Below, in pieces: positions 46,292 to 54,147 of a DNA stretch of 64,000 nt (within the stretch, counting starts at the first letter, position 1; each line of letters begins with the position of its first letter). The notes beneath the pieces are model-generated. The model was given only the letters and a program-made list of their open reading frames with translations, was not told the origin of the DNA and did no database searches. A program made the translations under genes and the position numbers. Where the stretch lies: NCBI GenBank assembly GCA_022567305.1, contig JADFHF010000006.1, positions 1-64,000 of the forward strand, written 5' to 3'. The stretch comes from Bacteroidota bacterium. Lineage in GTDB: Bacteria > Bacteroidota > Rhodothermia > Rhodothermales > UBA10348.

Positions 46292-48427
46292 TTGCTACGA
46301 TACATTCTCCCTGCGGTACTGTTTGCACTTGTACCCGCTGCAAATCCCGTATTAGCCGTTCAGACCCAGGAATCCGGTGTTCTCTCGCGCGTGAATATCC
46401 TTCCGCCCGACGACCTGGAACTCGAAGATGGGTTGTTGGCGGATTACGCGTCTCCGGACTCTCTGACTGAAGCACAACTGCTCGCTCGACTGGCGAGATT
46501 ATATGAGTTCCAGGCCGAAGTACTAACGGCGATGGCTCTCGGCCATGAAGACGACGTATCGCCTCTACTGGAGGGCGCTCTTACGGATTTGTCTGAGCTT
46601 CTGAAGCATCAATATGTTCGCGAAGAACCGCGATTCATGGAAATTTATCAAGTGTTAGTCAGCGAATACGAGCGCCAGTTCGGGATTTCCGACACGTTGT
46701 TCCTGGCTTATGGAGACATATTCGACACGAGATCAGATGTGTTCGCTGCGCTTGAAAAAGTTCGAAACCCACTCCTTGAAGATGTCTTCAGACCGGAGCT
46801 CCAGCCGCTTCAGACTACCGTCCCCATGACCATGAACCGTCTCGTGGAAAGCACCATGCAGACGCTTCTCAAAACACCCGATCGGCATCTCATTCATTGG
46901 TTGGAGCGAGCGGACACCTATTTCCCGATGATCGAACAGATCTTCAGAGAGGAAGGCATTCCGGACGAGTTGAAGTACCTAGCAATGATCGAATCTGGCT
47001 TGAATCCCAAGGCGAGGAGCTGGGCTCGAGCCGTTGGCATGTGGCAGTTTGTTGCCGGTACGGGAAGAGCTTACGGCCTTGAGATTAATGCGTGGGTTGA
47101 TGACCGAATGGATCCTGAGAAATCCACGCGTGCCGCCGCGAAACACCTGAAAGATCTATATGCGCGGTACGGGGATTGGCATATTGCCATGGCGGGTTAT
47201 AATTGCAGCCCTCGGTGCATCAGACGGGCGATCAACCGGGCCAAATCAGATGGACACGCCGTTCCAACGTATTGGGATATGTATCGGTACCTGCCCCGCG
47301 AAACGAGAGGATACGTTCCGATGTACGTCGCCACCTCTTTCATTATCTCAAATCCCAATGCGTTTGACTTGAAACAGGTGAAACCCGGTCCGGCTTATGA
47401 ATACCAGCTTATCCCGGTTCAGGGTATGTTATCGTTACGCGAAATCGCAGATCTAGCTGGAACCGATCTTTCGACGATGAGAGCACTCAATCCCAGTCTT
47501 CGACGTTCCACGCTACCCCCCTCGACCGGGCTATTTTATTTAAAAATACCTGTTGGGTCGACTGATCAATTTTACGCCGCCTACGACGCGCTCCCCGAAT
47601 CGGTCAAACAGCCGGCCGGAGAATACGTGGTTCGACGCGGCGACACGCTCGGTGAAATCGGGACGCGGTATGGAGTCAGTGTGTCGAGACTCATGCAGAA
47701 GAATGGGCTCCGGAGCACTCGCATTCAAATTGGTCAGCGATTGGTCGTGCCTTTATCCGACTACAGCCAGACGCTCCCTGAAATCGTGGGCGCCACAGGA
47801 ACACTCGTGCAATACGGCCGGCGCTCAACGCGTCCAATCATTTCAATCACGCAGCGTCGGACCTCGACAGCAGCGGGTTCTTCGAAAATCGTTCAGGCGA
47901 GTGCGCCGGCGTCGGGACCCTCCCAATCGTCGACGTCCAATGTACCCAATGGACAAACCCGAATTGTTTACACCGTAAGACGCGGCGATACTCTGGGTAA
48001 AATTGCCGATCGGTTCAAGGTATCGGTTTCCCAACTCCAGTCTTGGAACAACCTCCGCGGGACGCGGATCATCTCTGGAGCGCGACTGTCGATTTATACA
48101 GATTCCGGGTCGGCGTCGACTTCGGGACAGATTACCTACGTCGTAAAATCCGGTGACACCTTGTCCAAGATCGCTACGCGGCACGGAGTTACCGTCACGA
48201 ATCTGCGACGATGGAACGGTATTAGTGGTTCAAGAATTCGGACAGGACAGCGACTCAATATTCGCTCCGGCTCCGGATCTGAAATGGTGATCCATACCGT
48301 ACGAAGAGGAGACACCCTCATTGGGATCGCAAGTCGATATGCGGTTACCGTGGCGAAGATCAAGGAATGGAATACGCTCCGTAGCAACACCATTCGTGTC
48401 GGTCAACAACTAAATATCTTTCGGTAG
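46292..48427 (+). CDS. MltD-like lytic transglycosylase with four LysM repeats
   Basis: A 711-residue envelope protein with a signal peptide (LRYILPAVLFALVPAANPVLA). The start is the TTG at 46292, since no ATG lies between the preceding stop and the signal. Residues about 205-340 are the SLT domain, with catalytic Glu in LAMIESGLNP and WQFVAGTGRAYGL plus GDWHIAMAGYNCSPR. Four LysM modules follow (EYVVRRGDTLGEIG, VYTVRRGDTLGKIA, TYVVKSGDTLSKIA, VIHTVRRGDTLIGIA). These enzymes cleave glycan strands of murein, forming 1,6-anhydro ends, and bind murein through LysM. Standalone; downstream lies the sigma-factor operon. Confidence 0.9.
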   Translation: MLRYILPAVLFALVPAANPVLAVQTQESGVLSRVNILPPDDLELEDGLLADYASPDSLTEAQLLARLARLYEFQAEVLTAMALGHEDDVSPLLEGALTDLSELLKHQYVREEPRFMEIYQVLVSEYERQFGISDTLFLAYGDIFDTRSDVFAALEKVRNPLLEDVFRPELQPLQTTVPMTMNRLVESTMQTLLKTPDRHLIHWLERADTYFPMIEQIFREEGIPDELKYLAMIESGLNPKARSWARAVGMWQFVAGTGRAYGLEINAWVDDRMDPEKSTRAAAKHLKDLYARYGDWHIAMAGYNCSPRCIRRAINRAKSDGHAVPTYWDMYRYLPRETRGYVPMYVATSFIISNPNAFDLKQVKPGPAYEYQLIPVQGMLSLREIADLAGTDLSTMRALNPSLRRSTLPPSTGLFYLKIPVGSTDQFYAAYDALPESVKQPAGEYVVRRGDTLGEIGTRYGVSVSRLMQKNGLRSTRIQIGQRLVVPLSDYSQTLPEIVGATGTLVQYGRRSTRPIISITQRRTSTAAGSSKIVQASAPASGPSQSSTSNVPNGQTRIVYTVRRGDTLGKIADRFKVSVSQLQSWNNLRGTRIISGARLSIYTDSGSASTSGQITYVVKSGDTLSKIATRHGVTVTNLRRWNGISGSRIRTGQRLNIRSGSGSEMVIHTVRRGDTLIGIASRYAVTVAKIKEWNTLRSNTIRVGQQLNIFR

Positions 48428-48615
48428 ACCGAGCGCACAATTCTCTCAAGGGTGTAACCGTACGTTTCGATTCTCGTCTACTTCTCGTTTGTGGCATGGT
48501 TCAGAAAGTGCGCTTCAGAGCGCTATTCCAGCGAGACGGGCAATTTTTGTATGAATGCAATAATTCTCACCATTGATGCGTTCATAGCCCGAACTGAACG
48601 TCAGGCGACAGGAAG

Positions 48616-49260
48616 ATGGCTTTCCCACAAGGGGTAAAAGACCGGATAAGCATTGCCAATCCATCGGATGAAGAACTGGTATCGGCATATGTCGACCAGG
48701 GTGACGAACGTGCGTTCCGAATGCTGGTCGAGCGACATCAGGAAAGAGTCTTTGGATTTCTGCTCGGAATGGTCCGTGATCGGACGGTTGCCAACGACCT
48801 TTTTCAGGAAACGTATATCCGGGTTATCTCAGCCCTTCAACGGCAGCGAGCTTCGTACGCTCAACAGGGTCGATTTCTTGGCTGGGTGTTGAGGATCGCG
48901 CGTAATGCTGCGCTCGATCATTTGCGCACCCGAAAACGATGGCAAGATGTATCCGCAACCGTCGACGAATCGGAGACATCCTTTTGGGATCGTCTTCCTG
49001 ATAATGAACTCTCCTCAGACGTTGTCTTGCACAACTCCGAACAAGAGAGTTTTTTACGGGAATGCATCAATGATCTGCCTCCTGAACAGAGGGAAGTTTT
49101 ACTTCTTCGCCACGAAGCTGAGTTAACGTTCAGAGAAATTGCAGAACTGACTGATTGTTCGATTAATACGGCACTGGGACGAATGCGATATGCCCTTCAT
49201 AACCTGAGACACATCATTGCTTCGTCGGATAAAGTGGAATTATCAGAATTCGGTCCCTGA
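48616..49260 (+). CDS. ECF-type RNA polymerase sigma factor
   Basis: A 214-residue ECF (group 4) sigma factor. Region 2 contains AFRMLVERHQERVFGFLLGMV and NDLFQETYIRV with the polymerase-binding pattern; FLGWVLRIARNAALDHLR follows. Region 4 holds LPPEQREVLLLRHEAELTFREIAELTDCSINTALGRM, a helix-turn-helix for the -35 element. GGAAG precedes the ATG by three bases. The next gene, 25 bp on, encodes a membrane protein with the layout of an anti-sigma factor, followed by two exported proteins. I infer an envelope-stress regulon with this sigma at its head. Confidence 0.92.
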   Translation: MAFPQGVKDRISIANPSDEELVSAYVDQGDERAFRMLVERHQERVFGFLLGMVRDRTVANDLFQETYIRVISALQRQRASYAQQGRFLGWVLRIARNAALDHLRTRKRWQDVSATVDESETSFWDRLPDNELSSDVVLHNSEQESFLRECINDLPPEQREVLLLRHEAELTFREIAELTDCSINTALGRMRYALHNLRHIIASSDKVELSEFGP

Positions 49261-49285
49261 CCGAAGGAAGAAATGGTAGACCGTT

Positions 49286-49924
49286 ATGGAAGAAAAAAGG
49301 AACATTTTACTCCACCTTTACGGAGAAGCAGACTCGGCTAGCGATCTGCGTAGTTTGTTGAAAGACAAAGAACTACAGAGAGAGCATCAAGCGCTGAGCG
49401 AGGTAAAATTCCGTCTCGACCACCTGGATCCATCTAGACCAGATTCGAACACCCTTGATCGGATCATGGCTCACGCAGGAAAAGCGGCTGCCTCAACAGC
49501 AGTTGGCGATCGACGGGGAGACCGGCCACCCCTTTGGCGCACAAGGCCCATTCGGCGGGTACTCATTCCTGCGATGTCTATTGCCGCGGCGATTGTCATC
49601 GCCGTGGGCTTCGGATATTTTTCGTCCCCAACAACCAGCGTGAACCCAACAAACGAACAGATCACGGCTGAAAATAGGGCTGCTGAGGTGGAGTCACTCC
49701 TCAGAGCAAGACCCGTCGCTCCTGACCACACGATCCAGAGCGCAGCTGGCACGATCGATCCACTCCTTGTCTGGGATTATGCCCAATCCCTGCGAGAGTT
49801 GTCCAGACGGATCGAGACGATGCGCCCTCTCGATGATTTGGATTGGGGTGCCAGATCGATCCCTTTGGAAACGCTACCAGGAGGCACCATTCCAGGGATT
49901 CTCCAGGCGTCGTCCCAACGATAA
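49286..49924 (+). CDS. Probable membrane anti-sigma factor, no zinc motif
   Basis: A 212-residue protein of cytoplasmic-membrane-periplasmic layout. Residues 1-80 are acidic and helical (LLHLYGEADSASDLRSLLKDKELQREHQAL). After a basic stretch, residues 88-112 make one membrane helix (RRVLIPAMSIAAAIVIAVGFGYF). The outside part has a helix SLREARPVAPD-like and ends ...MRPLDDLDWGARSIPLETLPGG. The zinc-binding H-x-x-x-C-x-x-C motif of many ECF anti-sigma factors is absent. The position 25 bp after the sigma gene supports the role. It carries an LDW near the end, a tripeptide that also closes the two downstream exported proteins. Confidence 0.65.
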   Translation: MEEKRNILLHLYGEADSASDLRSLLKDKELQREHQALSEVKFRLDHLDPSRPDSNTLDRIMAHAGKAAASTAVGDRRGDRPPLWRTRPIRRVLIPAMSIAAAIVIAVGFGYFSSPTTSVNPTNEQITAENRAAEVESLLRARPVAPDHTIQSAAGTIDPLLVWDYAQSLRELSRRIETMRPLDDLDWGARSIPLETLPGGTIPGILQASSQR

Positions 49925-50051
49925 TTGATTCAGCTTCATTAAAAGTATAGTATGATATACGAACGGTATTCGATCAATCGTTTCTCCAAAAGTGCCATGG
50001 CTGTGATACAAGCTCGACCATTAAATTGATTACGTTATTGAAGTAGATAGA

Positions 50052-50963
50052 ATGATGAGAAAATTTACAATGAGGATTCCGGTACTCACACTTGCATTCT
50101 TTTTTTTAGGGCTACCCTTCTCTGATGTTCAGGCCCAGGACAGGATGCATGTGGTGACGATTGAAGACGGAAAAGTTTTCATCGACGGCACGCGAGTACC
50201 TGATGATGAGCTCCCCCCTTCGCTGAAGATCCGCAATCGAGAGCTTAGTTGGAATTTTTATGGCGATGCGCTCCTGGAATTGAACGGCACGGTTTACCAG
50301 TTACTCGATGGAAAACTGGTAGAAGCTGACGACGATATTGCCAGAGACGGTCGGGTTGTCGTGTTCTTTCGCGATCCAGAGGACGAGAACTCAATGGTTC
50401 GCGTTCTCTCCCGGAGAGATCCTTTTCAGTTCAGCCTGCAGGAGCCCTACCGGCGCTACGGTGTCGTGATGGAGGATTACATGAGGGCGCTGACTAATAA
50501 GGCAAAGGAGTTCGACATTATACGGAAGCAGATCGCCGAACAAAAAGGGGAGCATGCACTCGTCCTGGCTGAGCAGCTCCAACTTCAGGCTGAAAGTGCC
50601 GCGCGAATCGCCTTGGCATTCCCGCGTGTGGAATTCGAGAGTTATCTGAACGGTATTCACGACCAGAATTTAGACCTCTACGGAGAGCTGGTCCGCGAAC
50701 ACGACATGGAGACAGATACGCACCGCCTTGCCATGGAAACCCGCGCGACCCGAAACGCCCAGCAGCGGGAGCAGCTTGTTGAAGAACTGAGAAGACGACT
50801 CCACGAGGCCTTTCAGCTGAAACAGCAGAACAGAGAGCAAGAAATTGAGCAACTTGCGGACAGGCTTCAGGAGTTACACGAGAAGCTTGGTCAACGAGCT
50901 GATCTCCGTCAACAGATTATTGAGAGCAGGCTGAAGGAACTCCTCGGCGAACTCGACTGGTAG
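50052..50963 (+). CDS. Exported coiled-coil protein 1 of the sigma operon
   Basis: A 303-residue exported protein: signal peptide (IPVLTLAFFFLGLPFSDVQA, then QDRM). A short domain follows, VTIEDGKVFIDGTRVPDDEL...SLKIRNREL, then YGDALLELNGTVYQLLDGKLVEADDD. From about residue 165 it becomes a long coiled coil rich in Glu, Gln and Arg (QIAEQKGEHALVLAEQLQLQAES, ELRRRLHEAFQLKQQNREQE), ending KELLGELDW. The DGKVFIDG start and LDW end recur in the next gene, so they are paralogs. No family is known to me. ATG at 50052, 127 bp after the anti-sigma gene. Confidence 0.7.
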   Translation: MMRKFTMRIPVLTLAFFFLGLPFSDVQAQDRMHVVTIEDGKVFIDGTRVPDDELPPSLKIRNRELSWNFYGDALLELNGTVYQLLDGKLVEADDDIARDGRVVVFFRDPEDENSMVRVLSRRDPFQFSLQEPYRRYGVVMEDYMRALTNKAKEFDIIRKQIAEQKGEHALVLAEQLQLQAESAARIALAFPRVEFESYLNGIHDQNLDLYGELVREHDMETDTHRLAMETRATRNAQQREQLVEELRRRLHEAFQLKQQNREQEIEQLADRLQELHEKLGQRADLRQQIIESRLKELLGELDW

Positions 50964-51010
50964 GTTCGGATTTCAATCCGCCTACTTCGCGCTTTTTAAG
51001 AACTGATTAA

Positions 51011-51790
51011 ATGAACGATTTAAGTACAATGACAACAAAACTGACTCACGCCGTTCGAATCCTTGGAACGCTGGCACTACTCATCCTTTTTGCGCTCCCG
51101 GCGAAAGCCCAGGAAGGCAAGGAGATCGATGTAAATCGCATTGAGGTTAAAGATGGGAAGGTCTATGTAAACGGCGAAGAAGTGAAAGAACTCGAAAACA
51201 AAGACTTGCGGATCCACTTCTCCTCGGACCGAGATCATGGCCTTACCTTTTTCCGTGGGGATAAAGACGGCGATCATGGCTTTGCCTTTTTCCGTGGAGA
51301 TGGAAAAGGTGGTTTTGGTAACTTTTCCATTCGATCACCGCGCCTGCTTGAATCGTTCGACAACGAACCGTTTTTCGTTTGGGAAGACAACGACTTTCGC
51401 CATGCAAAAAATGATTTCGACTTCTCGATGCAGATGGCGCCGTTTCACGAGAGCATGGAAATGATAAGAGACGGGGCGTTTAAATCTTTCATGATAGGAT
51501 CCGGAAGCAACGGTGAGATTCGAAAGCTGGAGAGAAAATCTCGCGAGCTTGCCCGAAAGATTCGACGTGCGGAAGACAGCGAAAAAGCTGAGCTCAATGA
51601 AGAGCTCGAAGCGCTCGTTAATCAGATATTTGAACTGAAGCTCGAGACTCATCAGGAGCGCATCCGTAAAATCTCCGCTGACCTGGACCAGCTTCGTGAG
51701 CAGGTCCAGGACCGCATCGCATCGCGAGAACAAGTTATTCAGCGTCGCCTGAGCCAACTCCGCGGAGAGCGAGACACACTTGATTGGTAA
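51011..51790 (+). CDS. Exported coiled-coil protein 2 of the sigma operon
   Basis: A 259-residue exported protein and paralog of the previous gene. Signal sequence LTHAVRILGTLALLILFALPAKA is cleaved before QEGK. It then reads NRIEVKDGKVYVNGEEVKEL, a region with repeated acidic GDKDGDHGFAFFRGDGKGGFG (three Gly/Asp/Phe turns near residues 79-105), and a coiled coil from about 165 (GEIRKLERKSRELARKIRRA) ending RGERDTLDW. The first gene's DGKVFIDG and this DGKVYVNG align. Spacing is 47 bp and a perfect terminator follows 54 bp after the stop, so this closes the operon. Confidence 0.7.
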   Translation: MNDLSTMTTKLTHAVRILGTLALLILFALPAKAQEGKEIDVNRIEVKDGKVYVNGEEVKELENKDLRIHFSSDRDHGLTFFRGDKDGDHGFAFFRGDGKGGFGNFSIRSPRLLESFDNEPFFVWEDNDFRHAKNDFDFSMQMAPFHESMEMIRDGAFKSFMIGSGSNGEIRKLERKSRELARKIRRAEDSEKAELNEELEALVNQIFELKLETHQERIRKISADLDQLREQVQDRIASREQVIQRRLSQLRGERDTLDW

Positions 51791-51844
51791 ATCCGCCTCA
51801 TTATTGAGCGGAAAGCACCGGTTCGAATAAACCGCTGCGTGCAT

Positions 51845-51884
51845 GAGATCCCCGATGCGAACTTCGCATCGGGGATCTTTTTTT
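51845..51884 (+). terminator. Strong rho-independent terminator
   Basis: AGATCCCCGATGCG and CGCATCGGGGATCT form a perfect 14-bp stem around AACTT, followed by eight T residues (51877-51884). It ends the sigma-factor operon. The clearest terminator in the window. Confidence 0.92.
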
Positions 51885-52080
51885 TAAAGACCCGTTACCC
51901 GCAAATTTATCCTTATTCGGGGTCATTTGGACTGTTTTTGTACTCACGTTATTCGCTTTGCCTAATTATACTGCACCTCAAGCTGGCCGATACTTGTCCT
52001 GTAGAAACCGTGTTGGATTCGACCATTTATGAGAATTTGATCGCGTAACAAATGACTTTGAACGGAGTCGTTTGAACTTA

Positions 52081-53601
52081 ATGACCAGGTTAGCTAGCCA
52101 TATTTTATTAGTCAGACGGCGAGTGGTTGTACTTCTCTTGTTCTTTGCGTCTGCCCTGATGACAGGAGGATCCGCGTTACCTGAAAACAATTCGGCTCGG
52201 ATCGATCGAATATCCTTTTCTCCAGCGGGCGAGACCGAGTATCATCTTCGCTTACACAGCGACCGTGAAATCCCATGGTATGGTATTGCTCCCTTGGAGG
52301 CAGCAGATGGATTGCGCCTTACTCTGCTCAACGCGAGGCTCGCCGAAAACGCCGTGTTGGATACAGCCGAAGGCCCCGTCGAATCCTACACGGCATACGA
52401 GGAGAACGGAAAGGTCGTTGTTGATGCCATATTCTCGGTTTCGGATCTAAAGACGACTGTTCATCAGGACCCTGACAGTTATGATATCATTCTGGTCATA
52501 ACCGGTCGTTTTGATCGTCCGTTATCGGATATTTTGTTTCGTCTGGCACAATCTGCAACCGCCCGATCAGATACAACCGCCACGATCGCATCGAAACCGG
52601 AGGTGACTGATTCCCGGAATGATTCATCGAGGATTCAGGAAGAAACCCACGGAATAACGAACATACCTAATCGGATCCCCGTTGTCGATCCTGTAGCGCT
52701 TCCGAGAAGGTCCGATATCGCAAATGTTGACGCGCCTTCAACCGAAGATTCGACGGGCAATTCCCATGCATCGACCGAACCCGTAATCAGTGATATGGAT
52801 CGAATGTTTGCCGCTGCGCTCAGTAGGAGTACTTCGGCAGAACAAAAGACAATAGGTGCGGAGAACGGTCAGACGAATACAGCTAGCAGCCAGTGGACAC
52901 TGGATACGGTAGTAATCGACGCTGGACACGGAGGGTGGGACGAAGGAGCCTTTGGCCTGGGTGGTACGCTCGAGAAAGATCTCGCCCTTGATCTGGCAAA
53001 AAAGTTGGGTAAGCTGCTTACCGAAAACCTCAGTGTCAAAGTGGTTTATACGCGTACGGACGACCGCTTCATTTCATTGGCAGAGAGGGGTCGCTTTGCC
53101 AATCAAGCAGGCGGAAAGCTATTTCTCTCCATCCATGCCAACTCATCCAAATATCGGTCGGCACGCGGTACGGAAACCTTTTTTCTAGGAATGCACCGAT
53201 CTGACTCCGCGAAGGTGGTCATGGAGCGCGAAAATGAAGTCGTCAAATTGGAATCCGACGGAGATCAATATCAGAAGTTGACCCAGGCTTCACTCGCTCA
53301 ACAGGCGCTGGCCCAGAGTTCGTTTATGCGGCATAGCGAGATGCTCGCGGAGGCCATTCAGCGTCAATTCAGGGAGGGGGCCATTCGGCGGGATCGAGGA
53401 GTAAAGCAGGCAGGATTCTATGTTTTATTTGGCGCATCCATGCCCGCCGTACTTATCGAATTGGGATTCCTGACCAATCCATATGAGGAAAAATTCCTAG
53501 CCTCCGACGCCGGGCAAACGACCATGGCGAATGCTATCTTTCGAGCCGTAGAATCCTTTAAGCTCGAATACGAGAAGACGCTTCAGATCGCTTCTCAGTA
53601 G
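52081..53601 (+). CDS. N-acetylmuramoyl-L-alanine amidase with AMIN-like domain
   Basis: The ATG at 52081 (MTRLASHILLVRRR) opens a signal sequence (VVVLLLFFASALMTGGSA); the TTG at 52072 is rejected. An AMIN-like beta domain covers about residues 37-140 (IDRISFSPAGETEYHLRLHS, IDIILVITGRF-like). A Ser/Thr/Pro linker leads to Amidase_3 at about 280-500: VVIDAGHGGWDEGAFG with zinc His, GTLEKDL with zinc Glu, LSIHANSS with zinc His, and ELGFLTN with the catalytic Glu. It cleaves the amide between MurNAc and L-Ala during cell separation. 25 bp downstream is apt. Confidence 0.9.
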   Translation: MTRLASHILLVRRRVVVLLLFFASALMTGGSALPENNSARIDRISFSPAGETEYHLRLHSDREIPWYGIAPLEAADGLRLTLLNARLAENAVLDTAEGPVESYTAYEENGKVVVDAIFSVSDLKTTVHQDPDSYDIILVITGRFDRPLSDILFRLAQSATARSDTTATIASKPEVTDSRNDSSRIQEETHGITNIPNRIPVVDPVALPRRSDIANVDAPSTEDSTGNSHASTEPVISDMDRMFAAALSRSTSAEQKTIGAENGQTNTASSQWTLDTVVIDAGHGGWDEGAFGLGGTLEKDLALDLAKKLGKLLTENLSVKVVYTRTDDRFISLAERGRFANQAGGKLFLSIHANSSKYRSARGTETFFLGMHRSDSAKVVMERENEVVKLESDGDQYQKLTQASLAQQALAQSSFMRHSEMLAEAIQRQFREGAIRRDRGVKQAGFYVLFGASMPAVLIELGFLTNPYEEKFLASDAGQTTMANAIFRAVESFKLEYEKTLQIASQ

Positions 53602-53625
53602 CAGAATATTTCAGATCGCGACACC

Positions 53626-54147
53626 ATGATGGAACGCCTCTCTCGGGCTGTTCGAACCGTCGCTGATTTCCCGACTTCCGGAATTCAGTTCAAGGATATC
53701 ACCCCCATTCTGTCCGACGCTGAGTTGCTCCGTTTCGCAGTCGAAAGTCTTGCTGATCCGTATCGAAATGCAGGAATTACGAAAGTGATCGGTATCGAAG
53801 CCCGCGGATTCATTTTTGGCGCGATGCTGGCGGATGAACTGAATGCCGGGTTTATTCCAGTTCGTAAGAAAGGAAAGCTGCCGTACACAACGGTCGAAGA
53901 GACCTATTCACTGGAGTACGGGAGCGACACGATCGAAATGCATACGGACGCCGTCCACGAATCAGATCGTGTTCTGATTCACGACGATGTGATTGCAACA
54001 GGGGGTACGGCAGCCGCAACGCATCGTCTTGTTGCGTTCGGAGGCGGTTCTGTTGTCGGGTATTCATTCCTGGTGGAGCTCTCAGATCTAAACGGTCGAG
54101 CCCTCCTGGATCATGGCGTACCCGTGCATTCTCTTCTTAAATACTGA
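53626..54147 (+). CDS. apt: Adenine phosphoribosyltransferase
   Basis: A 173-residue type I phosphoribosyltransferase. The start MMERLSRAVRTVADFPTSGIQFKDITPIL and the ARGFIFGAMLADEL element are characteristic of Apt. The PRPP-binding loop reads VLIHDDVIATGGTAAA, and RKKGKLPYTTVEETYSLEYG is the flexible loop. It converts adenine and PRPP to AMP in purine salvage, in the cytoplasm. The first or second Met (53626 or 53629) may start it. Its 3' end faces the RidA gene 21 bp away. Confidence 0.92.
   Translation: MMERLSRAVRTVADFPTSGIQFKDITPILSDAELLRFAVESLADPYRNAGITKVIGIEARGFIFGAMLADELNAGFIPVRKKGKLPYTTVEETYSLEYGSDTIEMHTDAVHESDRVLIHDDVIATGGTAAATHRLVAFGGGSVVGYSFLVELSDLNGRALLDHGVPVHSLLKY

Follow-up and report, generated by a model that had tools for sequence, protein, structure and literature searches.

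An ECF sigma factor operon with two exported coiled-coil paralogues, a predicted regulator of outer-membrane-assembly stress in Rhodothermales

Introduction

Surveillance of outer-membrane assembly is poorly known in Gram-negative bacteria outside Proteobacteria. In the sigmaE precedent, the anti-sigma factor is released by proteolysis and a periplasmic partner protects it, as described for RseB and DegS (PMC8103513). In Bacteroides, ECF21 sigma factors are associated with the Das/Dma systems, in which a dual membrane-spanning anti-sigma factor carries a long disordered tether and ends in an outer-membrane beta barrel (PMC13088901, PMC9308784). Class I anti-sigma domains (ASDI) are built as a three-helix bundle with a linked fourth helix, and their zinc motif is optional (PMC7406223). 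A text search of the open-access literature returned no described ECF system from Rhodothermales or Salinibacter.

Here we analyze an operon located in a 64-kb stretch of DNA from a member of the Rhodothermales (hereafter, the window). An initial annotation had noticed a sigma factor followed by a membrane protein without the zinc motif and by two exported coiled-coil paralogues, and had proposed that they might form an undescribed envelope-stress module.

Results

Organization of the operon

The genes for the sigma factor, the anti-sigma candidate and two exported proteins, named P3 and P4, form one run on the plus strand, closed by a terminator. Its parts are as follows.

48558..48582, plus strand: promoter element CAATAA-N15-CGTT, candidate autoregulated ECF promoter, 34 nt 5' of the sigma start codon
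48616..49260, plus strand: ECF sigma factor, 214 aa (Pfam Sigma70_r2 9.5e-15 and r4_2 2.6e-11; NCBIfam TIGR02937 6.5e-30)
49286..49924, plus strand: zinc-less single-pass anti-sigma candidate, 212 aa, placed after sigma in all orthologous loci
49547..49621, plus strand: transmembrane helix of the anti-sigma candidate, residues 88-112 in the AF2 model, with a hydrophobicity maximum at residue 91
49766..49777, plus strand: anti-sigma tail motif 1, LVWD, with W163
49829..49846, plus strand: anti-sigma tail motif 2, LDDLDW (residues 182-187), with W187; consensus LDW(G/D)ExAVPLExLP
50052..50963, plus strand: P3, exported, 303 aa, with an N-terminal beta domain and a C-terminal coiled coil (AF2 model), ending in LDW
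50700..50957, plus strand: C-terminal helical domain of P3, common to P4
51011..51790, plus strand: P4, exported paralogue of P3, 259 aa
51521..51775, plus strand: C-terminal helical domain of P4, aligned by hhalign with P3 and with the protein of another class described below
51779..51787, plus strand: C-terminal LDW of P4
51845..51887, plus strand: intrinsic terminator, a 16-pair stem (51845-51879) followed by a T run

The four frames and their motifs agreed with the initial annotation, including LDDLDW near the anti-sigma C-terminus, the LDW ends of both exported proteins and the perfect terminator. The promoter element, the second invariant tryptophan of the anti-sigma candidate (W163) and the regulon were absent from it. 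The sigma factor is of the ECF sigma-70 type, with regions 2 and 4 only (Pfam, NCBIfam), and may fall into an ECF group that already has a number.

The operon is flanked by genes for a LysM-type lytic transglycosylase (46292-48427) and, 3' of the terminator, for an N-acetylmuramoyl-L-alanine amidase and apt (52072-54147). The amidase gene stays next to the operon in much of the Rhodothermales, the transglycosylase gene only in the family of the window.

Conservation across Rhodothermales and beyond

Relatives of P3 were found in all 60 Rhodothermales genomes, and relatives of P4 in 48 of them. Rhodothermus marinus and Salinibacter ruber, both available as laboratory strains, carry versions with P3 alone. 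Co-occurrence with a sigma gene was the check proposed by the initial annotation: a sigma gene adjoins the P3 relatives in 52/52 loci not cut by a contig end, and the remaining 8 loci, which have no sigma gene, all stop at a contig edge next to P3 or P4. Among the loci examined, no exported coiled-coil homologue lay away from a sigma gene, so the outcome that the initial annotation had named as refuting did not arise; the only proteins found elsewhere share the N-terminal domain and have no coil. The order sigma, anti-sigma, P3 and, where present, P4, usually followed by the amidase and apt, is held across 15 families of the order. The feature stands above chance, because this layout recurs across Rhodothermales and the terminal tryptophan is invariant in 29 P4 homologues.

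The coil-less proteins occur in three genomes of one family (f15; L164, L165, L166), as tandem arrays of exported proteins of 400-480 aa with a P3-like N-terminal domain and no sigma neighbour.

Among 296 genomes sampled across the phylum, the coiled-coil matches outside Rhodothermales fell in one family of the same class and in families of a different class, and the loci examined there showed the same layout of sigma, anti-sigma and P genes. In the other class, the P protein was confined to one family (sample of 119 genomes), and in some loci the gene at the anti-sigma position encodes a classic HxxxCxxC protein. Profile comparison shows homology between the P proteins of the two classes that extends through the C-terminal tryptophan (E 1e-16). 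Profile comparison of the anti-sigma proteins of the two classes gave no significant similarity (probability 1.5%). Their correspondence is therefore drawn from gene position, the membrane helix and two invariant tryptophans, the profiles themselves not aligning. In the other class these tryptophans are present in 11/11 sequences, the anti-sigma tail reads LLDWE, and the P proteins end in YLDWE, YLRWD or similar, with W usually followed by D/E.

The anti-sigma candidate

The protein encoded after sigma contains no HxxxCxxC motif and no cysteine before its sole membrane helix. In the AF2 model, its N-terminal helices (residues 2-11, 19-24, 28-45 and 54-73) were predicted at high pLDDT. The NCBIfam anti-sigma profile NF052375 matched weakly (5e-7, below cut-off). 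A fold search of the model against the PDB gave 7 matches, all of them anti-sigma domains (MucA, RslA, RseA), each individually non-significant (E 2.4-8.3).

W163 and W187, both in the extracytoplasmic tail of residues 113-212, are invariant in 36/36 Rhodothermales sequences. In this alignment the residue after W163 is D/E in 35 of the 36, the residue after W187 is D, G or E, and leucine is the most frequent residue two positions before either tryptophan. The tail motif appears to resemble the P terminus; this likeness was spotted after the fact and is offered as a lead.

In two families, f13 (L097, L101, L112) and f3 (L093, L095, L120), P4 is lost and P3 has no terminal tryptophan; both tryptophan motifs of the anti-sigma candidate are kept.

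The exported proteins P3 and P4

Both proteins begin with a signal-peptide-like segment, ending around AQAQ in P3 and KAQ in P4. A short N-terminal region with G-x-V-x-x-N/D-G follows (EDGKVFIDG in P3, KDGKVYVNG in P4), then the C-terminal helical domain. By BLAST the likeness of P3 to P4 is weak (30%, E 0.0012); by profile comparison (hhalign 99.9%, E 2e-31) their paralogy is significant over the C-terminal 85 residues. P3 was modelled with AF2 as a monomer (pLDDT 84), with strands over residues 32-120, helices over residues 133-299 and a floppy C-terminus.

P3 ends in GELDW and P4 in DTLDW. Homologues of P4 end mostly in D-x-(L/Y/F)-(D/E)-W, with the terminal tryptophan present in 29/29. A terminal tryptophan was found in 19/46 P3 sequences, and it is often missing outside the family of the window.

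The initial annotation knew of no described family for these proteins, and searches bore this out: P3 and P4 are an exported family absent from Pfam and NCBIfam. Comparison with the PDB by sequence and by fold gave nothing notable for either protein, the fold search of P3 being non-significant. Coiled-coil matches (golgin, laminin, Wzc and, for 1/46 members, MakE) were rejected as an identity for P3 and P4, being driven by composition.

The promoter element

All pairs of 4+4 bases with spacers of 14-19 were searched in the upstream regions of 53 sigma orthologues and compared with shuffles. CAATAA-N15-CGTT was found in 37 of these loci, the shuffle maximum for any such pair being 4-6. Written as CAATA(A/T)-N14/15-CGTT, the element lies 5' of sigma in 45/53 loci, with 0 for the reversed control and 0 on the opposite strand. 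The copy at 48558-48582 is the sole exact match in the window. The window's own genome has 10 exact matches (reversed control 3), of which several are probably due to chance. In 12 relatives, element matches elsewhere numbered 1-5 per genome, and matches to the reversed pattern 0-1.

The element also precedes the sigma gene outside Rhodothermales. In the second family of the same class it was found with N15 in both genomes. In the other class it was present with N14 in most loci, with near-matches in L155 and L157 and none in L163. Because the element is near-universal before the sigma factor's own operon, we infer from these sequences that it is read by this sigma factor itself.

The predicted regulon

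The genes behind element matches were read first; their orthologues were then collected and 350 nt upstream of each were scanned. Regulon membership was assessed for each set of orthologues, not by a genome-wide score. The element was found upstream of bamA in 20/27 genomes, mostly 60-140 nt before the start (85 nt in the window's own genome). It lies upstream of an htrA/degP-like gene (7/28) and of bamD (4/30) in a minority of genomes, and upstream of a second sigma gene in 4/30. Target identities were assigned by Pfam domains, namely POTRA for bamA, trypsin plus PDZ for htrA and YfiO for bamD. The reversed control of these upstream scans gave 0/115, and the rest of the same target loci, about 277 kb, contained one element match.

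As the element stands before bamA, htrA, bamD and the second sigma gene, the module is a predicted counterpart of E. coli sigmaE. The envelope-stress module put forward in the initial annotation is well supported by these placements, and we consider it highly probable that it regulates the response to outer-membrane-assembly stress.

The second sigma gene behind the element suggests a putative sigma cascade. This very conserved gene, with the element, was seen in Salinibacter-like and Roseithermus genomes and in one other (L202, L207, L208, L296).

Two further proteins were observed behind the element. A conserved membrane-anchored coiled-coil protein of about 200-240 aa, with RPxRLxMGLGIATxxLFSxNLLAMLSQ and no Pfam match, occurs in two genera (L182, in the window's own genome at G000:C99:16154, and L213 in G005). 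An exported protein of about 430-450 aa with IFIDCxYCDxxYIKExIPxVNYVRDxxDADVHVL (L161:4327-5622, L162:2358-3683, L358, L360) has its gene within the sigma operon of the second same-class family, and its homologue lies behind the same element in two genomes of the other class (f26). The L161 member had no Pfam match.

Discussion

Proposed mechanism

The sigma factor would recognize CAATA(A/T)-N14/15-CGTT, including the copy before its own operon, and the single-pass anti-sigma factor would hold it at the inner membrane through N-terminal helices like those of zinc-free class I anti-sigma domains. P3 and P4, produced from the same promoter, would most likely dock on the anti-sigma tail via the two L-x-W-acid motifs. 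Once docked, they could sense the envelope state and protect the anti-sigma factor against proteolysis, in the way that RseB protects RseA. The C-terminal L/Y-x-W of P4, resembling the tail motif, may compete for this docking site. A failure of outer-membrane assembly would lead to loss of the anti-sigma factor, and sigma would raise bamA; in some lineages, free sigma would also raise htrA/degP, bamD and the second sigma factor. The anti-sigma activity, the docking of P3 and P4, the anti-sigma proteolysis and the envelope signal are all putative steps. Taken whole, an autoregulated outer-membrane-assembly stress operon that corresponds in function to E. coli rpoE-rseA-rseB, with P3 and P4 docking on the anti-sigma factor, is the reading that we favour with some reserve. 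We put the chances of P3 and P4 acting directly on the anti-sigma factor at about even.

The targets of E. coli sigmaE include periplasmic chaperones. P3 and P4, whose genes sit in the induced operon and whose modelled build is helical and coiled-coil, might likewise be effectors, that is, periplasmic Skp/Spy-like coiled-coil chaperones that rescue outer-membrane proteins and make no contact with the anti-sigma factor. We consider this rather unlikely. Their place beside sigma in every locus examined is more in keeping with a regulator than with a general chaperone; an effector role does not account for the invariant terminal tryptophan or for its resemblance to the tail motif of the anti-sigma factor; and Pfam and NCBIfam gave no Skp/OmpH or Spy match for either protein, the OmpH profile included.

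In a second alternative, the C-terminal L/Y-x-W of P3 and P4 would be a signal to a PDZ domain or a BAM component, mimicking the C-terminus of an unfolded outer-membrane protein and activating a DegS-like protease that cuts the anti-sigma factor. A free terminal aromatic residue does recall how misfolded outer-membrane proteins bind the DegS PDZ domain through their C-terminal peptides (PMC8103513), and a trypsin plus PDZ gene belongs to the predicted regulon of some genomes. However, the P proteins of the other class usually carry D/E after the tryptophan (YLDWE, YLRWD), which is unfit for a PDZ groove that takes a terminal aromatic, and BamA of Rhodothermales ends in SLGQGFGQ, not in LxW. 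This signal role is improbable.

Finally, a metal-sensing module, with the exported helical proteins as metal-binding controllers of the anti-sigma factor, as the layout of cnrYXH and of CpxP-like proteins might suggest, is ruled out for practical purposes on family and regulon evidence, since Pfam gave no Metal_resist/CpxP match, LTxxQ is absent from P3 and P4, and the predicted regulon comprises BAM and HtrA, not metal export.

Returning to docking of the exported proteins on the anti-sigma tail, the distribution of P3 and P4 bears on which of them is the partner. Several families without P4 keep both tryptophan motifs of the anti-sigma factor; therefore P4 is not the sole partner there. Every tryptophan-bearing anti-sigma factor is accompanied by P3 or a P-like protein, whereas P4 has been lost in several families; this makes P3 the likelier receptor and P4 a modulator. 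More speculatively, and with odds that we place well short of even, P4 could be a dosage-reading decoy, in competition with the anti-sigma factor for the P3 coiled coil via their common L/Y-x-W-acid/carboxylate motif. Such a decoy would tie the stability of the anti-sigma factor to envelope traffic, and the sigmaE-like system would predate the divergence of the two Bacteroidota classes; if true, this would be a signalling principle not described before.

The locus offers a candidate dedicated BAM-stress sigma factor for a whole order, with a related operon in another class, and its explicit promoter code makes the regulon testable. Moreover, the invariant single tryptophan is an obvious residue to mutate in this family of exported putative regulators.

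Comparison with known systems

CnrYXH, CpxP and Spy resemble the present module in that an exported helical protein works with a sigma factor or a kinase sensor; they differ from it in family, in the LTxxQ motif and in regulon. The ECF21/Dma systems share with it a Bacteroidota ECF sigma factor and a membrane anti-sigma factor tied to the outer membrane. Unlike Dma, the anti-sigma candidate described here has 212 aa, with about 100 residues after the membrane helix and no C-terminal beta-barrel domain, and the exported proteins are separate.

E. coli sigmaE (rpoE-rseA-rseB-rseC) likewise combines an ECF sigma factor, a single-pass zinc-less anti-sigma factor, periplasmic partners encoded in the same operon and an autoregulated promoter, and it has targets of the bamA, bamD and degP type, predicted here from sequence alone. 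In E. coli, DegS and RseP cleave the anti-sigma factor sequentially; in the present genomes, HtrA-family genes exist. The differences lie in the CAATA(A/T)-N14/15-CGTT promoter, in the tryptophan motifs of the anti-sigma tail and the P4 C-terminus, and in periplasmic proteins that, unlike RseB, combine a coiled coil with a beta N-domain, P3 and P4 having no RseB match in Pfam or NCBIfam. Thus, a sigmaE-like predicted regulon (bamA, htrA) appears to depend on a promoter and on periplasmic partners that differ from those of E. coli.
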